Positions 24,919-48,825 of a stretch of DNA of 64,000 nt are shown here, in pieces. Origin of the DNA: an uncultured Alphaproteobacteria bacterium (lineage in GTDB: Bacteria > Pseudomonadota > Alphaproteobacteria > Micavibrionales > Micavibrionaceae); assembly GCA_946481075.1 (NCBI GenBank), contig CAMLMC010000001.1, forward strand, positions 248,001 through 312,000, written 5' to 3'. The translations under genes were made by a program, and so were the position numbers. The notes below the pieces were generated by a model. The model searched no databases. It was given only the letters and a program-made list of their open reading frames with translations, and was not told where the DNA came from. Within the stretch, counting starts at the first letter, position 1; each line of letters starts with the position of its first letter.

Positions 24919-26019
24919 TTACGGGCCTGCGGGGGTAATTCCGGCCAGATCGGCTTGTGCCACTGGTTTCACCGGAAAATCGCCGCTCGCGCTGGATAGA
25001 AGACCAAAACGGCACCATGATGTGGTGAATTTGAATTCATCCAGACCATCCAGTGTATTGCGGGAAGCGGGCACGGAGGCCTGAATAACCCATGGCGCGG
25101 ATTCTTTGTCATAGCGGCATATGTAGAAGGGCGGCGTGGCTTTGCCTGCGGCCTTCTGACGGGTGAGCATATGATCCATGAATTCTTTTAAATGCGGTTT
25201 TCCTTCCTTACCGAAGATCCAGTTGGCCATAAGTTCGTTTTGCCAGTCGAAATCTTCGATGAGGTCGATTATTTTTCTCGATCTCGTTCCCAAAGCATAT
25301 GTGTTGCCGGAGAAGTGATCGAAGTCATATTGCAGCGGCATGAATGATTTACCTTTTGCGAAACTGGTTTCATCGAAATTCTGTAGTTCCTCCAAAGTGT
25401 GTTTAGAGTCTGAAATATAGGCGGGTTCAGGCAACCGGTCGCGGCCGAAAAAGAAGGAATTGTTTCGTATGACAATGGTCATTTCTTTCTTAAGATCGGA
25501 ACAAAGAATATAGGCGCGGCGGTATTCTATATAGAGGTTGTCTTTTTCAAGCGCGAACCCTGTGCCGTAATAATCGCGGTCAGGGTGGCCGGGGGGAAGG
25601 GATGGATCAAGCACATCACTGGGACGTTTCAAACGCTCCATTCCATATCGTTCCATCAATGAACCTTGGTTGCCAAACCCTTGGGCCAGAAAGCGCCATT
25701 CCGGAAAGGAAAAGCCGATACGTCCAACCATACCGAACAATTGGCAAATGTGATCGGGGAATCTGGTTGATCCATCAAGCTTATGCAGCGGAACATTCGG
25801 CACCAGAGTTTTGGTTACATGCTCTCTTTGCGGTCTGGAAAATTTTCCAGCGTTCAGAAGCATCATGGCTTCGGGGAGCCAGTCATCGCCTGCGCGATAG
25901 TTACTAATAGTATCAAATGCCTCTTGTGTGTTTCTTGATTTTAAAATGGCGGGTAGTCGCGCCGCCAGATCCTTTGCGTTTATTTCTTCATTCGTGGCCT
26001 GCGTGAATTGCGGTTTCAT
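24919..26019 (-). CDS. Uncharacterised protein coupled to a NAD-synthetase-like gene
   Basis: I do not recognise this 366-residue protein. It is soluble, with no signal peptide or membrane segment, and rich in aromatic residues. Notable stretches are FPEWRFLAQGFGNQGSLMERYG near 105-126, a charged central region with IVIRNNSFFFGRDRLPEP, and FDWQNELMANWIFGKEG around 258-274. Its ATG overlaps the stop of the NAD-synthetase-like gene by 4 bases (ATGA), so the two are translationally coupled and probably act in one process. No catalytic motif can be assigned. Confidence 0.7.
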   Translation of the reverse strand: MKPQFTQATNEEINAKDLAARLPAILKSRNTQEAFDTISNYRAGDDWLPEAMMLLNAGKFSRPQREHVTKTLVPNVPLHKLDGSTRFPDHICQLFGMVGRIGFSFPEWRFLAQGFGNQGSLMERYGMERLKRPSDVLDPSLPPGHPDRDYYGTGFALEKDNLYIEYRRAYILCSDLKKEMTIVIRNNSFFFGRDRLPEPAYISDSKHTLEELQNFDETSFAKGKSFMPLQYDFDHFSGNTYALGTRSRKIIDLIEDFDWQNELMANWIFGKEGKPHLKEFMDHMLTRQKAAGKATPPFYICRYDKESAPWVIQASVPASRNTLDGLDEFKFTTSWCRFGLLSSASGDFPVKPVAQADLAGITPAGP

Positions 26020-26855
26020 AGTGTGACCGCCAATGGTTTTTCCGGCTTGTAAGGCGTAAGTTCGCGGAAAGCATTGCTGCGGGTTTCTTCCAGATAAAAG
26101 GAAACAACCTGCCCGTATATTTTATCGCTCATGCTTTCCCGCACATAGTCTTTGGAAAGCAAACCGGCCTTGTACATCAAAAACAAATCCACTTCGCGCA
26201 TGTAATGCGCCTGCGTTTCGAACCGGCCACAATCGCAATCCACCTCGCGGCTTTTATCGATGGCGATTTGTGGCACACCAAGGTAATCGCAAATTTCGAG
26301 CACTTCGCTTTTATATAGGTCGATGATCGGCTGCATACTGACATTTCTTGAAATCTGGCTGTAATTGCCGAGCGCGGCTTCGGTGGCGTTGCGCGTTCCA
26401 ACGACGAAATAATGATTGCCCGAAAGCCCTGCGCGAGGATCCGTGTCACGCACGGCGCGGCTGAACAAATGTCCCCAGCGTATATTGTCATCGCTGCGCG
26501 GGATCGTGTCATCGATTTCGAATTGTGCCTTGGGGGCGCGGCTTTTCAGCCATGGCAGTATATCGCGGGCGACCCAGTTGAATTCGGTTTTGGCGCAGAT
26601 GATTTTTCCTTCCACCAACTCGTTATGCTTGCCATGTTCGAAATTGAGGCCGAGGACGCGGTGCTGTCTGTTCTGCCGTTCGAAGGCTTTTGCACAGGCA
26701 AGGAAGGTGAGGATGGAATCGGTGCCGCTGATTCCGACCAGAAGGCCGGGGGCCCGTTCCTGAACCGCTTTTTCGCCGATCCATGACACGATGGCTTCGA
26801 ACGTGGCGGCGGGTTCGATTCGGCGCGGGGCGGCGGGCAAGGGCTGATCTGACAT
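26016..26855 (-). CDS. NAD-synthetase-like PP-loop ATPase with shortened PP-loop
   Basis: A 279-residue protein of the N-type ATP pyrophosphatase fold. The synthetase-like second half is clear: VVGTRNATEAALGNYSQ, then PIIDLYKSEVLEICDYLGVP, which align with the NadE blocks GT.N..E...G..T and P..DLYK..V..LA..LG.P. The P-loop reads VGISGTDSILTF, so SGTDS (43-47) replaces the canonical SGGxDS and is one residue short. A CDCGRFE cysteine pair lies near residue 208. It may be an amide- or adenylate-forming enzyme other than NadE, or have reduced activity. It is divergent from ldtR and coupled to the orphan downstream. Confidence 0.75.
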   Translation of the reverse strand: MSDQPLPAAPRRIEPAATFEAIVSWIGEKAVQERAPGLLVGISGTDSILTFLACAKAFERQNRQHRVLGLNFEHGKHNELVEGKIICAKTEFNWVARDILPWLKSRAPKAQFEIDDTIPRSDDNIRWGHLFSRAVRDTDPRAGLSGNHYFVVGTRNATEAALGNYSQISRNVSMQPIIDLYKSEVLEICDYLGVPQIAIDKSREVDCDCGRFETQAHYMREVDLFLMYKAGLLSKDYVRESMSDKIYGQVVSFYLEETRSNAFRELTPYKPEKPLAVTL

Positions 26856-27019
26856 TGTACGTCTCTTACAAATTAAGGTTATGAAAACATTAGGCTGTAA
26901 AAAACCGTGCTGGCAAGGGGATTTATTGCGTATGCAGCAAGAAATGGTTAATATTTATCGCGTAGTCTAATCCATGGGTCATTCCGGCCCATCATGTTGT
27001 CAAAACTGGAGTATCCCAA

Positions 27020-27496
27020 GTGTCCACACCGTATTTCGACGCCATACAGTTAATCGAACGCCTGCACCGTTACTTTTTGGATGTTGTGAAGGTGGAGCTG
27101 GACCGCAAGGGGATTCAGGATATCAACAACGTGCAGGCGATGATTCTCTATAACATCGGCCATGATGAAATGACGGTCGGGGAGTTGACCCTGCGCGGTT
27201 ATTACCTCGGCTCCAACGTGTCCTACAACGTCAAGAAGATGAGCGAAAACGGCTATATCGAGCAGGAACGCTCGGTTCACGACAAACGCTCGATCCGCGT
27301 GAAACTGTCCGATAAGGGCAAGGAAACCTACAAACTTCTCTCTGATATGTTCGCCCGCCATGAAGAAAAAATTCAAGGGACAGAACTGACGGATGCCCGT
27401 ATGACGGACCTGATCAAGACCATGAAGATGTTCGAGCGTTTCTGGACATCCCAGTCGCAGTTTACCGGCCTTGCGTCGATCGACGACGAAGAATAA
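27020..27496 (+). CDS. ldtR: MarR-family regulator LdtR
   Basis: A 158-residue winged-helix regulator. The helices and wing read NVQAMILYNIG, MTVGELTLRGYYLGSNVSYNVKKMSENGYIEQER and then DKRSIRVKLSDKG, which is the LdtR layout known in Rhizobiales and Liberibacter. There it controls L,D-transpeptidase and stress genes. The L,D-transpeptidase at 14.2 kb is a plausible target, but I found no proven operator. The last 54 bases of coding sequence recur 440 bp downstream. Its stop abuts the stop of the convergent 102-residue gene. Confidence 0.85.
   Translation: MSTPYFDAIQLIERLHRYFLDVVKVELDRKGIQDINNVQAMILYNIGHDEMTVGELTLRGYYLGSNVSYNVKKMSENGYIEQERSVHDKRSIRVKLSDKGKETYKLLSDMFARHEEKIQGTELTDARMTDLIKTMKMFERFWTSQSQFTGLASIDDEE
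27436..27489 (+). repeat. Direct repeat, copy 1 (ldtR 3' end)
   Basis: Fifty-four bases inside the end of ldtR are identical to 27876-27929. The similarity continues to both sides with a few changes (ATGAAG/ATGAAA upstream, GAATAATTA/GAGTAATTA downstream). The repeat spacing is 440 bp. Confidence 0.95.
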
Positions 27497-27805
27497 TTAT
27501 GCGCCAAAACCGCCATGTTGGCCGGGTCCAGCAGGGGTTTTCAAGCCATATGATTCCGGGGCGCCTTTTGCTTTGTATGTCATTTTTATTTCAGCGGGAG
27601 CCGTGTCCATGCTGCGTCCGCCGATAAGGCTTTGTACGGTAAAAATTGGATAACCCCAAGATTTGCCCTTGTCTGACTGGCATAAAACAACATCGCCATC
27701 CTGCATTTTGAAAGACATAAAAGCAGCCCGGTTGAACTCGGCCGCATTACCTATTTCATAAAGCTTTCCTGTTTCGGCTTTCTGGGTTTTTGCAAACAAA
27801 TTCAT
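27497..27805 (-). CDS. Small orphan protein inside the ldtR-tail duplication
   Basis: A 102-residue protein I do not recognise. It begins MNLFAKTQKAETGKLYEIG, has a mixed hydrophilic core (DGDVVLCQSDKGKSWGYPIFTVQS) and ends in a Gly/Pro-rich tail (TPAGPGQHGGFGA). No signal peptide or membrane segment is seen. It lies convergent to ldtR, with stop codons side by side, and is bracketed by the two copies of the ldtR 3' end. That suggests it arrived with, or was trapped by, the duplication event. GGAGAG lies just before the ATG on the minus strand. Confidence 0.6.
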   Translation of the reverse strand: MNLFAKTQKAETGKLYEIGNAAEFNRAAFMSFKMQDGDVVLCQSDKGKSWGYPIFTVQSLIGGRSMDTAPAEIKMTYKAKGAPESYGLKTPAGPGQHGGFGA

Positions 27806-27875
27806 TTTGATCTCTCCTTTGCCTAAACGATAAAGCAGGGAGGGGGTGTGTCAACCCTTTATGAAAACGTTCCGG

Positions 27876-27929
27876 GCGTTTCTGGACATCCCAGTCGCAG
27901 TTTACCGGCCTTGCGTCGATCGACGACGA
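27876..27929 (+). repeat. Direct repeat, copy 2 (ldtR 3' end remnant)
   Basis: Identical to 27436-27489 over 54 bases and still ending with an in-register stop (GAGTAATTA). It is not part of an intact gene here. It sits between the 102-residue orphan and the promoter of the alpha-CTD-like gene. Confidence 0.95.
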
Positions 27930-27943
27930 GGAGTAATTAATGC

Positions 27944-27972
27944 TTGACATAACTACTGACTATGTTTATTTT
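27944..27972 (+). promoter_or_regulatory. Candidate sigma-70 promoter of the alpha-CTD-like gene
   Basis: TTGACA at 27944-27949, a 17-bp spacer and TATTTT at 27967-27972, 31 bp before the ATG at 28004. It begins 14 bp after the repeated ldtR tail. Confidence 0.5.
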
Positions 27973-28003
27973 CCCTTAAATAAAAGTAGGCGGAAAATTA
28001 AAA

Positions 28004-28564
28004 ATGTTGGTGGATACGAAAATAAAGTTTACTGAAAAAGAAGCTGCGTTTCTGCAAACCAGCACCAGTGATTTAAATGTTTCGACAAGAACAAAAAGCT
28101 GCCTGCTAAATGACAACATTATGACAGTTTTCACTCTACTTCAGTTTGAAGATAGAGACTTGTTACGAATTCCAAGTTTTGGACGTAAAAGTTTAAATGA
28201 GCTCAAAGAAATATTGGCCGTGAATGGATTTCACACTGGAAAGCTAAAGCCTTATGCAGGTCAGCTCGATGCAGTTGATATTAGCGATCTAAAAACCTTG
28301 GAAGAGGCCGGTTTTCTGGATGTGGGTCAGTCTGTAATATCTCAGGATCCAGTAATGCCCGCTACTCCTTTGGCGCCAATATCATCCTCATCCTCAGATG
28401 TTCTTTCAGACTGGATAAATGATGTTTTGCCCGAAAGTCTGCGCAATGGTCTTTCGCCACAATTTTTATCTTCTGTTCTAAATTCTCCGGAAGTGAAAAG
28501 CAAAGTTCGCCAAACTGTTGTAACGGCGATTACCTCCGGCTTGAATTTAAACGATATCAAGTAA
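28004..28564 (+). CDS. Stand-alone RNA polymerase alpha-CTD-like protein
   Basis: A 186-residue protein. Residues 22-79 match the C-terminal domain of RNA polymerase alpha: [17 protein letters not shown], then [20 protein letters not shown]. Arg29 aligns with the DNA-binding Arg265 of E. coli RpoA, Cys33 with Cys269 and the FGRKS loop with the second DNA-contacting turn. The alpha N-terminal assembly domain is absent. A Ser/Pro-rich linker (about 110-135) leads to a helical C-terminal segment (137-184). The gene is visibly richer in A and T than its neighbours. AGGCGGA lies 11 bases before the ATG. Its last 8 bases overlap the end of gcdH. A role as a DNA-binding regulator is inferred. Confidence 0.75.
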
Positions 28565-29738
28565 ACGCCTGCAACCCCGTCTGTGCCCGGCCCAGAATGA
28601 GGGCATGTATGTCATGCGTGCCTTCGTAGGTGTTGACGGCTTCCAAATTCATCACATGACGGATCACGTGATATTCATCGGCGATGCCGTTGCCGCCGAG
28701 CATATCACGGGCGGTGCGGGCAATATCGAGCGCCTTGCCGCAATTGTTGCGTTTGAGGAGCGATATCGCTTCATTCGGTGCATGATCATCTTCACGGAGT
28801 TTTCCAAGGCGCCATGACCCGAGCAGGCCGAGCGTGATTTCGGTTTGCATATCGGCGAGTTTCTTTTGCACCAGTTGCTGGGCCGCGAGCGGTTTGCCGA
28901 AAATGACGCGGTCCATCGTGTATTCACGCGCCTTGTGCCAGCAGGCCTCCGCCGCGCCCATCACGCCCCAAGAGATGCCGTAACGTGCGGAATTCAGGCA
29001 AAGGAACGGTGATTTAACGCCTTTTGACCCTTCCAGCAGGTTTTCATCCGGCGCAAACACTTCATCCATCATAATTCCGCCGGTTGTGGAGGCGCGAAGG
29101 GAGAATTTCCCCTCAATCTTCGGTGCCTCTAGTCCCTTCATGCCTTTTTCAAGGATAAACCCGCGGATATCCCCGCTCTCGCTCTCCTTCGCCCAGACGA
29201 CAAAGACATCGGCGATGGGGGAATTGGTGATCCATTGTTTGGAACCGGAAATCTTGAAGCCCCCTTGAACCTTCTTTGCCACGGTGCGCATCGAAGATGG
29301 ATCGGACCCGCCATCCGGTTCGGTCAATCCGAAACATCCGATTTTTGCACCAGAGGCCAGATCCGGCAGGTATTTTTGGCGCTGCGCCTCTGACCCGAAC
29401 TTATAGATCGGGTACATGACCAATGATGATTGAACGGAAAGGGCGGAGCGGTAGCCGGAATCGACCCGCTCCATTTCCCGTGAGATCAAACCGTAGGAGA
29501 CTTGGGAAACGCCGGGACAGCCGTAACCATCAATCGTCGCGCCGAGCAGGCCGAGTTTGCCCATTTCTTTCATGATCTCGGGGTCGAACTTTTCATGGCG
29601 GTTTGCCTCGATGACTCCGGGGAGAAGGCGATTTTGGGCGAAATCATGCGCCGTGTCGCGGATCATCCGCTCATCATCGGTCAAAAGCTCGTCCAGAAGC
29701 AGGGGGTCTTGCCAGTAGGGGGATGGTGCATCGGCCAT
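28557..29738 (-). CDS. gcdH: Glutaryl-CoA dehydrogenase
   Basis: FAD enzyme of lysine/tryptophan breakdown that oxidises and decarboxylates glutaryl-CoA to crotonyl-CoA; 393 residues. Features include [17 protein letters not shown] near 133-149, [35 protein letters not shown] near 240-255, LGGNGI and the catalytic Glu372 in [16 protein letters not shown]. The GTHD plus GLTEPD.GSDP pattern favours glutaryl-CoA over other acyl-CoA dehydrogenases. It is a lone gene, convergent with the alpha-CTD-like gene. Confidence 0.92.
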
Positions 29739-29785
29739 GATATTGTCCCTTGGAAATCCGTCACTTTCATTTATTATACCCCTAA

Positions 29786-29989
29786 ATGTCTGAACAGCCT
29801 CTAAAAAACCGCGAAATCATCTTCGAAATCATCCAGCTGGGGATTTACGCCAAAATCACGGCCATAGATGTCGCCACAGGGACCGAGGCGTCGATCAGCG
29901 GCCCGGCCAGCACGCCGGACCCGATTTTAAAGCGGAATGCCATCAACAGATTAGAATTCGTTCTGCGCAAGAAAGGCTTGATTGCGTGA
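29786..29989 (+). CDS. Small conserved protein (probably DUF6898)
   Basis: A 67-residue cytosolic protein with the pattern [30 protein letters not shown] and a basic C-terminus ([17 protein letters not shown]). Similar small proteins occur next to rpiB and glyA in alphaproteobacteria and I assign it to that family from memory. The function is unknown. It is followed after 18 bp by rpiB. Confidence 0.7.
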
Positions 29990-30007
29990 GGCTCAACCCC
30001 TTATATC

Positions 30008-39567: not shown

Positions 39568-40464
39568 ATGGGCATGAAAAAAGCGTTCAATAAGTATGCG
39601 GAAGAATTGCCGGACGACGAGGTAGCTCTGTTCAACCAGCTTGTCACATGCGCGCAAAGGCATATGAAAGTCGATGCCGCTAACCTGCTGGAATTTTTGC
39701 AAGGAGAGCTTGCAGCGGAGATGACGGCGGCGCTTCATCTTGATGCCTATAAAATTTTGAAATCCCATTATATCCTCACCAACACCGAAAACGAACATCT
39801 GGAGGATTCGATTGCGACAATCATCGATAATGTCCAGATCCGGCATAACAACCAACTGGAACGCATCAACAAAAGAAGGTTGCATAAAGACCCGGATGTT
39901 TTTTCCATCGGGGCCTATCATCACAATTTTCTAAACCGTCTGGCCAATGACGTGAACACGACGCTTAAATATGCGAGCGTTCTGGTGGCGGAATCGGCAA
40001 TGGCTGTCCATGATGTGACACTTGTTCGCGCGAACTGGATGGAGCTTTATTTCGAACCGGTATTGCTTCCTAAACATGAGGCTCTAAATGCACCCGAAGC
40101 GCGTGATATCGCAGACATGATGACCTTGGCACCCGATGAAGTTTTTGGGTTTTTAAACGGATATTTTTCGTGCGCTTTATATGAGGATGTTTGTAGCCTG
40201 TGCCCCAATCTTACGCGCGATCAAAGGGAAAAGTTCTTTTATGCCTTTGACGACCTTATGGATGATGTGAAGGATTATTATTCCGACGTAGCCAAGCAAT
40301 CTATCGGCGCTAAATCACCCGATCCGCATGACCCTATATGGTACGAATTGACAGACCGCATCAACGGTACCCTTGAGGAAACGGCACCTGCCATATGCAT
40401 GCTTTTGGTTGCAGCGCATGACACGCCGATTTGCGCGGCGGATTTAAAACTGCTCATCCCTTAG
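39568..40464 (+). CDS. Uncharacterised acidic helical protein
   Basis: A 298-residue soluble protein that I do not recognise. It is rich in Asp/Glu and mostly helical by pattern, with no signal peptide. Segments include FNQLVTCAQRHMKVDAANLL (24-43), AYKILKSHYILTNTENEHLE, and FLNGYFSCALYEDVCSLCPNLTRDQREKFF around 196-225, which contains three cysteines (C..E.VCSLC). The start could be 39568 or the ATG at 39574. It is convergent with bamE, whose stop lies 3 bp away. Confidence 0.65.
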   Translation: MGMKKAFNKYAEELPDDEVALFNQLVTCAQRHMKVDAANLLEFLQGELAAEMTAALHLDAYKILKSHYILTNTENEHLEDSIATIIDNVQIRHNNQLERINKRRLHKDPDVFSIGAYHHNFLNRLANDVNTTLKYASVLVAESAMAVHDVTLVRANWMELYFEPVLLPKHEALNAPEARDIADMMTLAPDEVFGFLNGYFSCALYEDVCSLCPNLTRDQREKFFYAFDDLMDDVKDYYSDVAKQSIGAKSPDPHDPIWYELTDRINGTLEETAPAICMLLVAAHDTPICAADLKLLIP

Positions 40465-47805: not shown

Positions 47806-48825
47806 TTATTTTTGCTGATAGTCCGGTCCCGATTTTTGAACCCCGGGCCGCAGGATGGTGGGCAGCGAACGCAAGTAGGATTGCGCGTCATCGGACAGTT
47901 CCGTTGAAGCAAGGCCGACGGCTTCATCGTTTACGGAAATCTTTCCTGCAAGACCTTGTGCCAGTTGATGTAGCCTGAATTCAGACGGTCCTTCGATAAT
48001 TCCCAAATAACTTTCCTTGGCCGCGTGGTCTTTTGATAGTTTACGTTCATGCAGCAGGGCAAAGCGGTCTATCAGTTCGATGGCGGATGGGTTGTCGGCG
48101 CCGAGCCGTCTGTAATGTTGCTCCATCGCGACCTTCATGCCTGACAAGATGCTTTCGCCGTCCCAATATCGTTCGACGTCCACATGGCGGCAGCCCGATG
48201 CGATTAAAATGTCCAGCATATCGCGGCATTGGGGGAATGCGGAATAGAAGGCATCATTCTTGCTGATCGAATGTTTGCCCATGTGCTGGTTAAAATGGGC
48301 GTCAATCGCGTTTATCATTTCATCCATTTCGAACGCAATCGTGTAATCGTCAGGTGAATAGTTTGAAAGGTCTTCCGGTTGAACGGATGGTCTGTATTCT
48401 TCCAGTGGCACCGGCGTAGTTGCAGATATACACGAGGTTAAGAGGGCGCTTTCCGCAGGATCGGCGCCAAGGAGGCAGAATGGCATGGACTGCACACCCT
48501 TTTCCACCATGGTGCGAACAAGGGGCGCATCGTAAAGGGTGCTTGATTCCGTATTGTGAAAAGGAAGGCCGATGGATGGCATGACGATCGGGCATTGCGT
48601 GTCTTGGGCAAGCATTTGCTCGGAGCGGTATCTGGTCAGTCTTTCCCCGATATGTTCGCGTTTGTAGCCGGGGACGTCTTTTGTCAGTGAAAGGATTTCC
48701 GCCGGATCTGCAAAAATAACAAAGGAATGCGGGCCGCAGAATGCGCTGGCCGTAAAGGCGAAAGACCGTTCAAGGCCTTCAATGCGGATAATTTTTCTTA
48801 AGGCGATCTCTGTATATTCTGACAT
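47806..48825 (-). CDS. Uncharacterised protein downstream of tRNA-Pro
   Basis: A 339-residue soluble protein that I do not recognise. It has no signal peptide or membrane segment. Landmarks are a well-packed N-terminal part ([26 protein letters not shown] around 14-39), [17 protein letters not shown], a Pro/Ser-rich middle, and a helical C-terminal part with [30 protein letters not shown] near 215-244. GGAG precedes the ATG. It is convergent with the tRNA and divergent from the CorC-type gene. Confidence 0.65.

Follow-up and report, generated by a model that had tools for sequence, protein, structure and literature searches.

A stand-alone RNA polymerase alpha-CTD-like protein with a helical C-terminal module, encoded between ldtR and an acyl-CoA dehydrogenase gene in Micavibrionales

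The C-terminal domain of the RNA polymerase alpha subunit (alpha-CTD, Pfam PF03118) is normally tethered to polymerase. It is described as a surface to which both activators and DNA bind (PMC13374769, PMC4495994). Francisella has a second alpha subunit, which is full-length and enters polymerase as a heterodimer (PMC3294249). The protein described here resembles that case in that alpha has been duplicated in one lineage, and differs from it in being an alpha-CTD without the N-terminal domain instead of a full-length subunit. Alpha-CTD-like stretches are also present in the BREX kinase PglW and in the short NCBIfam model NF005841 (PRK07758, hypothetical protein, 95 positions). Our protein scores 14 bits against the NF005841 cut-off of 115 and is not a member. 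It matches PglW at E 0.021, but the PglW model has about 1400 positions, whereas the protein has 186 aa and no kinase family in Pfam. PADLOC likewise returned PglW alone, via the alpha-CTD stretch (E 0.011, and 5e-6 and 0.011 for the related loci L042 and L046, respectively), with no PglW match for a third relative, L045. Literature searches gave no characterised equivalent of the stand-alone protein, although the wording of the queries may have limited this, and the variant is thus undescribed as far as was searched, in agreement with an earlier sequence-only reading of the locus.

The gene lies in a 64,000-nucleotide stretch of an uncultured Micavibrionaceae genome, hereafter the window (Table 1). 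The sequence-only reading had proposed a free-standing alpha-CTD with a new helical module at its C-terminus, and both parts were borne out. Pfam and the predicted structural model agree on the alpha-CTD fold, R29 corresponds to Arg265 of Escherichia coli and F59-S63 to the FGRKS turn. The alpha N-terminal dimerisation domain is absent, as a Pfam search of the 186-aa protein with an E limit of 1 gave PF03118 alone, and NCBIfam RpoA models match it over CTD positions only, far under their cut-offs. Beyond the missing assembly domain, the protein differs from RpoA in the change of two DNA-contact asparagines to serine, in its extra linker and C-terminal module, and in the location of its gene between ldtR and acdA. 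The linker is probably disordered, the predicted model having pLDDT below 50 over residues 82-115 and 117-131. The ldtR-like gene scores 179.4 bits with NCBIfam LdtR, under the cut-off of 250, and the 3' ends of the alpha-CTD gene and the convergent acdA overlap by 8 bp. Our main reading, to which we give a probability of roughly 0.5, is that the protein belongs to a Micavibrionales family of accessory DNA-binding proteins built on an RpoA-type alpha-CTD, which would modulate the use of promoters by RpoA.

Table 1 Features of the alpha-CTD locus, in window coordinates
Feature	Position	Strand	Basis or remark
ldtR-like MarR-family regulator, upstream slot flank	27020..27496	+	NCBIfam LdtR match
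ldtR 3' end, repeat copy 1	27433..27499	+	
102-aa ORF between repeat copies, divergent from alpha-CTD gene	27497..27805	-	
Promoter-like site (TTGACA) of 102-aa ORF	27854-27827	-	
ldtR 3' end, repeat copy 2	27873..27939	+	
Promoter-like site TTGACA-17-TATTTT of alpha-CTD gene	27944..27972	+	
Stand-alone alpha-CTD protein gene	28004..28564	+	186 aa; ORF list; Pfam PF03118
Alpha-CTD fold, residues ~11-80	28034..28243	+	Pfam PF03118 and predicted model
Linker, residues ~82-130, Ser/Pro rich towards its end	28247..28393	+	pLDDT and sequence
C-terminal four-helix module, residues 126-186	28379..28561	+	Predicted helices and leave-one-out homology
Acyl-CoA dehydrogenase-like gene acdA (named by eye), downstream slot flank	28557..29738	-	ORF list

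The C-terminal module was predicted to form four helices also when folded alone (mean pLDDT 75.6). Profiles were built from the slot members other than the one under test, i.e. from genes in the position between ldtR and acdA, and each was run on 3587 ORFs outside the training rows. The left-out protein ranked first of the 3587 ORFs in each of five cases, with E values of 7.6e-7 for the window protein (profile trained on the other four), 8.9e-10 for L042, 3.3e-12 for L045, 2.5e-4 for L046 and 8e-7 for L060. The module shared by the slot relatives is thus real at the level of sequence homology. L040, L011 and L041 failed the same test among the 3587 ORFs. An alpha-CTD-like protein of a different slot, L061, took one of the two next places in every one of the five tests, as L047 did twice. 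A single-query search of 5.8 billion proteins, which sees only lengths of 0.55-1.75 times the query, returned the window's own protein alone (one of 176 candidates). With a seven-row alignment nine proteins were returned, of which five carry RpoA N-terminal domains according to precomputed Pfam annotation; the others were the proteins of the window, L046 and L060, and P0007, a 190-aa database protein with its alpha-CTD at the C-terminus and an unrelated N-terminal part.

That the gene is a truncated copy of rpoA was considered and rejected. The domain is mostly 43-50 % identical to the RpoA CTDs of the order (39-42 % where the alignment overran the RpoA stop), the protein carries the family C-terminal module, and the slot copies sit between ldtR and acdA, away from rpoA. 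The free-standing alpha-CTD is a real variant and not an artefact.

Scanning with the ldtR-like gene of the window gave 16 loci, the best of which, L001, has an LdtR 91 % and an acyl-CoA dehydrogenase 84 % identical to those of the window. In this closest relative the slot is empty, with a gap of 13 bp. Three further loci, L042 (G026), L045 (G025) and L046 (G040), have an alpha-CTD gene between ldtR and a convergent acdA as in the window, L042 with an extra 148-aa ORF between ldtR and the alpha-CTD gene. A more diverged alpha-CTD gene occupies the same slot in L011 (22 of 69 residues identical; PF03118 score 21.7 bits, just under the cut-off). The sixth member, L060 (G048), was found by the C-module profile; it adjoins acdA and has a degenerate alpha-CTD missed by Pfam, and its slot is shown by acdA only, because no ldtR could be matched in G048 at the threshold applied. 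The homologue and neighbour search thus uncovered a slot common to several genomes. Family members are 21-37 % identical to the window protein, which a single-sequence search aligned with its relatives from G025 (window residues 27-180) and G026 (window residues 21-169). RpoA-length frames of 326-358 aa are present in G025, G026, G040, G011 and G048, so the slot protein replaces no missing alpha-CTD there.

The sequence-only reading had taken the AT-rich composition and the partial duplication of ldtR as signs of acquisition. Both features are present, and the empty slot of L001 and the phage-like neighbours (by eye) of L053, another alpha-CTD fusion of the order, would also fit a gene recently brought in by a phage or another mobile element. 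We nevertheless consider such an arrival unlikely, because four other genomes (L042, L045, L046, L011) carry the gene at this very position and one more (L060) has it next to acdA. The low G+C is common to all six slot genes (0.403-0.439 against 0.500-0.599 for acdA), which makes it a trait of the slot gene and not a mark of recent transfer. PHROGs gave no family for the protein and a pattern scan of viral contigs no relative. In 50,697 phage records six matches were found, over the CTD only; four of these bear an RNA polymerase alpha annotation (two from Acinetobacter phage records, two from Salmonella genome records) and the other two have none. With no Rfam match within window positions 26800-30000 and PADLOC limited to the PglW stretch, a phage, defence or RNA feature was rejected.

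For the duplicated end of ldtR, a repeat of 67 nt, an insertion of the 102-aa ORF is a better explanation than acquisition of the alpha-CTD gene. The stop of copy 2 lies 67 bp before the alpha-CTD start, and the bare gaps between ldtR and the slot gene are 53 or 86 bp in L045, depending on the start chosen, 112 bp in L011 and 124 bp in L046. We infer an entry of the 102-aa ORF into the interval separating ldtR from the alpha-CTD gene, next to which the original end of ldtR stayed behind. The two copies are nearly equally like the L001 sequence (53 and 51 matches of 67), and the sequence thus does not tell which is older. No Pfam or NCBIfam family was found for the 102-aa ORF, nor any relative among the 3587 ORFs of the fetched loci. 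The element TTGACATAA precedes the slot genes of four of the six loci (window, L042, L045 and L011). Since the window has two further copies and the 911 kb covered contain 29 in all, overlapping loci included, it may be just a strong local -35 element. Two window proteins without a Pfam family, at 47806-48825 (-) and 39568-40464 (+), have TTGACATAA just upstream.

Residue conservation was compared with a consensus built from four RpoAs of the order, using what we take to be the DNA-contact residues of the 265 determinant, numbered as in the MG1655 record. The window copy is identical to the consensus at 7/9 positions of the DNA face, 0/4 of the sigma-4 face and 1/6 of the activator face; the equivalents of N268 and N294 are serine. 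Fifteen stand-alone proteins were tabulated, L039 being left out of the face counts and L061 never entered; the latter, although a carrier of the C-module, aligns without an Arg265 equivalent. Arg265 is kept in all 15 and G296 in 14 (6/6 and 5/6, respectively, among the slot proteins). Identity to the consensus was 81/135 cells for the DNA face, 198/648 for the rest of the domain (197/652 on recount), 4/57 for the sigma-4-facing residues (5/57 on recount) and 12/83 for the 287 activator face (12/82 on recount). Among 5000 draws of nine random columns, none reached the DNA-face count of the 15 proteins; the share that did was 0.26 % with the six slot proteins and 4.3 % with the window protein alone. 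In 11 control RpoAs, distant phyla included, the corresponding values were 88/99 (DNA face), 250/484 (rest), 20/44 (sigma-4) and 19/64 (activator face), N268 was present in all 11, and four of them, from distant phyla, also had low sigma-face identity (0/4 or 1/4). The DNA face is thus kept above background in the stand-alone proteins, and less so than in true RpoA. As the controls show this face to be the best conserved part of RpoA in general, its retention may be inheritance, and we regard it as moderate support for DNA binding. The stand-alone proteins were largely found with alpha-CTD profiles, which biases these counts towards conserved alpha-CTD residues. DNA binding by the window protein is likely, judged from sequence comparison.

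It is also conceivable that the domain has given up purposeful DNA binding and acts through protein contacts, mimicking RpoA to activators or Nus-type factors and titrating them from polymerase. The described role of alpha-CTD as an activator platform, the change of N268 and N294 to serine, and members with only 21-37 % identity to the window protein are consistent with such an adaptor. The activator face is, however, little kept, in the 15 proteins and the window copy alike, while R265 and G296 are almost always present, and an adaptor of this kind seems to us a minor possibility.

An accessory competitor or modulator is the most economical model, and from binding onwards we infer its steps. 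The alpha-CTD would grip the AT-rich minor groove via the Arg265 face, as RpoA does, and the C-terminal module may drive oligomerisation or bind a partner. As it has no N-terminal domain, the protein presumably could not enter polymerase in place of RpoA and would instead occupy UP-element-like or activator-adjacent sites. Such occupancy would change which promoters the alpha-CTD of RpoA itself can use; that the protein binds UP elements and competes with RpoA is plausible. A free alpha-CTD with an extra module would offer a natural test of what the domain is capable of without polymerase, and may represent a new trans-acting mode of control at UP-element promoters. It would also be a transcription protein particular to its lineage, within an order that includes Micavibrio aeruginosavorus, an obligate epibiotic predator (PMC3189940).

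A PF03118 search covered 142 genomes of the order to which G011 belongs, and 130 had a match. Besides RpoA-length frames there were, among the matches listed, 15 over the cut-off in 13 genomes, including one PglW-like protein (G063) and leaving outside three short frames (G066, G077, G133) taken for RpoA by score. Extra matches over the cut-off were found in 2 of 105 other alphaproteobacteria (G158, G194), compared to 13 of 142 genomes in the order; for G160 and for G242 the search gave just a single, odd match. Run on 143 genomes, a profile built from stand-alone alpha-CTDs hit proteins other than RpoA in 20 of them (E up to 0.01), or in 15 after omitting the phage-like G009 and G012, the short G038 and the marginal G068 and G142; 11 of these 15 had a row of their own in the profile.

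ldtR was found in 130 of the 142 genomes, and 120 ldtR loci were read (the window, L001-L016, L042, L045, L046 and 100 more, leaving out 12 of the 130 genomes), a few of the contigs stopping soon after ldtR. A relative of the acyl-CoA dehydrogenase follows in 58 of the 120, within the stretch covered. After the short L073, L105, L148 and L149 were dropped and L060 was added, 55 slots could be classed: six hold an alpha-CTD gene, 20 are empty (gap below 300 bp) and 29 hold other ORFs. The six alpha-CTD loci are scattered in a tree of acdA and LdtR, in which some deeper nodes have support of 0.68-0.77. The window stands beside the empty L001 and L011 beside L069, which has another gene in the slot; L042 groups with L045, and L046 and L060 stand apart. 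We prefer an old slot gene that has often been lost over the alternative, an exchange of the gene among relatives through recombination in the conserved flanks. Gain within the window's lineage is possible, since the closest relative L001 has an empty slot. The L050 gene is found in G107 alone of the close relatives G107-G109, and is absent from the matching place in G108, where the flanks are 91 % identical. The empty L001 slot and this two-alpha-CTD paralogue, present in G107 and not in G108, indicate that the gene is easily gained or lost, a point against our main reading. A search for the L047 gene in 17 genomes yielded, apart from an RpoA-length frame, nothing but its own copy.

This patchiness (6, 20 and 29 of 55 loci), the AT-richness, the low identity between members and the return of the window protein alone from the length-restricted single-query search could also indicate an old duplicate of the rpoA CTD, joined to new sequence and drifting towards loss under little constraint in a variable slot. 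Drift of this kind would, however, hardly leave diverged frames of about 174-222 aa open in all six slot loci, Arg265 and G296 so widely kept, a module recognisable in all five leave-one-out tests, and TTGACATAA upstream of four of the six genes. We therefore regard it as rather unlikely, and the accessory DNA-binding protein remains our favoured reading.

Other stand-alone proteins of the order (L043a/b, L044, L047, L048, L051, L049, L050) also have the alpha-CTD near the N-terminus, and most have a promoter-like site close upstream. They differ from the slot family in their chromosomal slots and in C-terminal parts that are mostly not recognisably related, that of L047 showing a weak relation. 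L044 (5661-6356) and L048 (3231-4043) form a second shared slot, each converging on a phosphomannomutase-like gene (by eye) that is common to both genomes. The L051 gene (3938-4750, G116) lies about 1 kb from rpoA on the opposite strand, and the 423-aa product of L050 (5489-6760, G107) contains two alpha-CTD-like repeats. Within the order, the window protein scores best against L041 (491-2119, G059; 46 % identity, E 1.5e-16), a 542-aa protein with an internal alpha-CTD. In L053 (7159-7776), whose neighbours are phage-like by eye, L054 (2091-2633) and L055 (1343-1984), the alpha-CTD follows an N-terminal part that is helical and looks HTH- or sigma-like by eye. The 16.5-kb Yoonia plasmid pBS5-3-2 (L177, 742-1914) bears an rpoA-like frame of full length, extended at its C-terminus and missing from the PLSDB gene table. 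In the window itself, a lower-G+C stretch at 24919-26855 (-), between a hemB-like gene (by eye) and ldtR, holds two overlapping genes, for a 366-aa protein without a Pfam family and for an NAD_synthase-like protein (PF02540, 44 bits).
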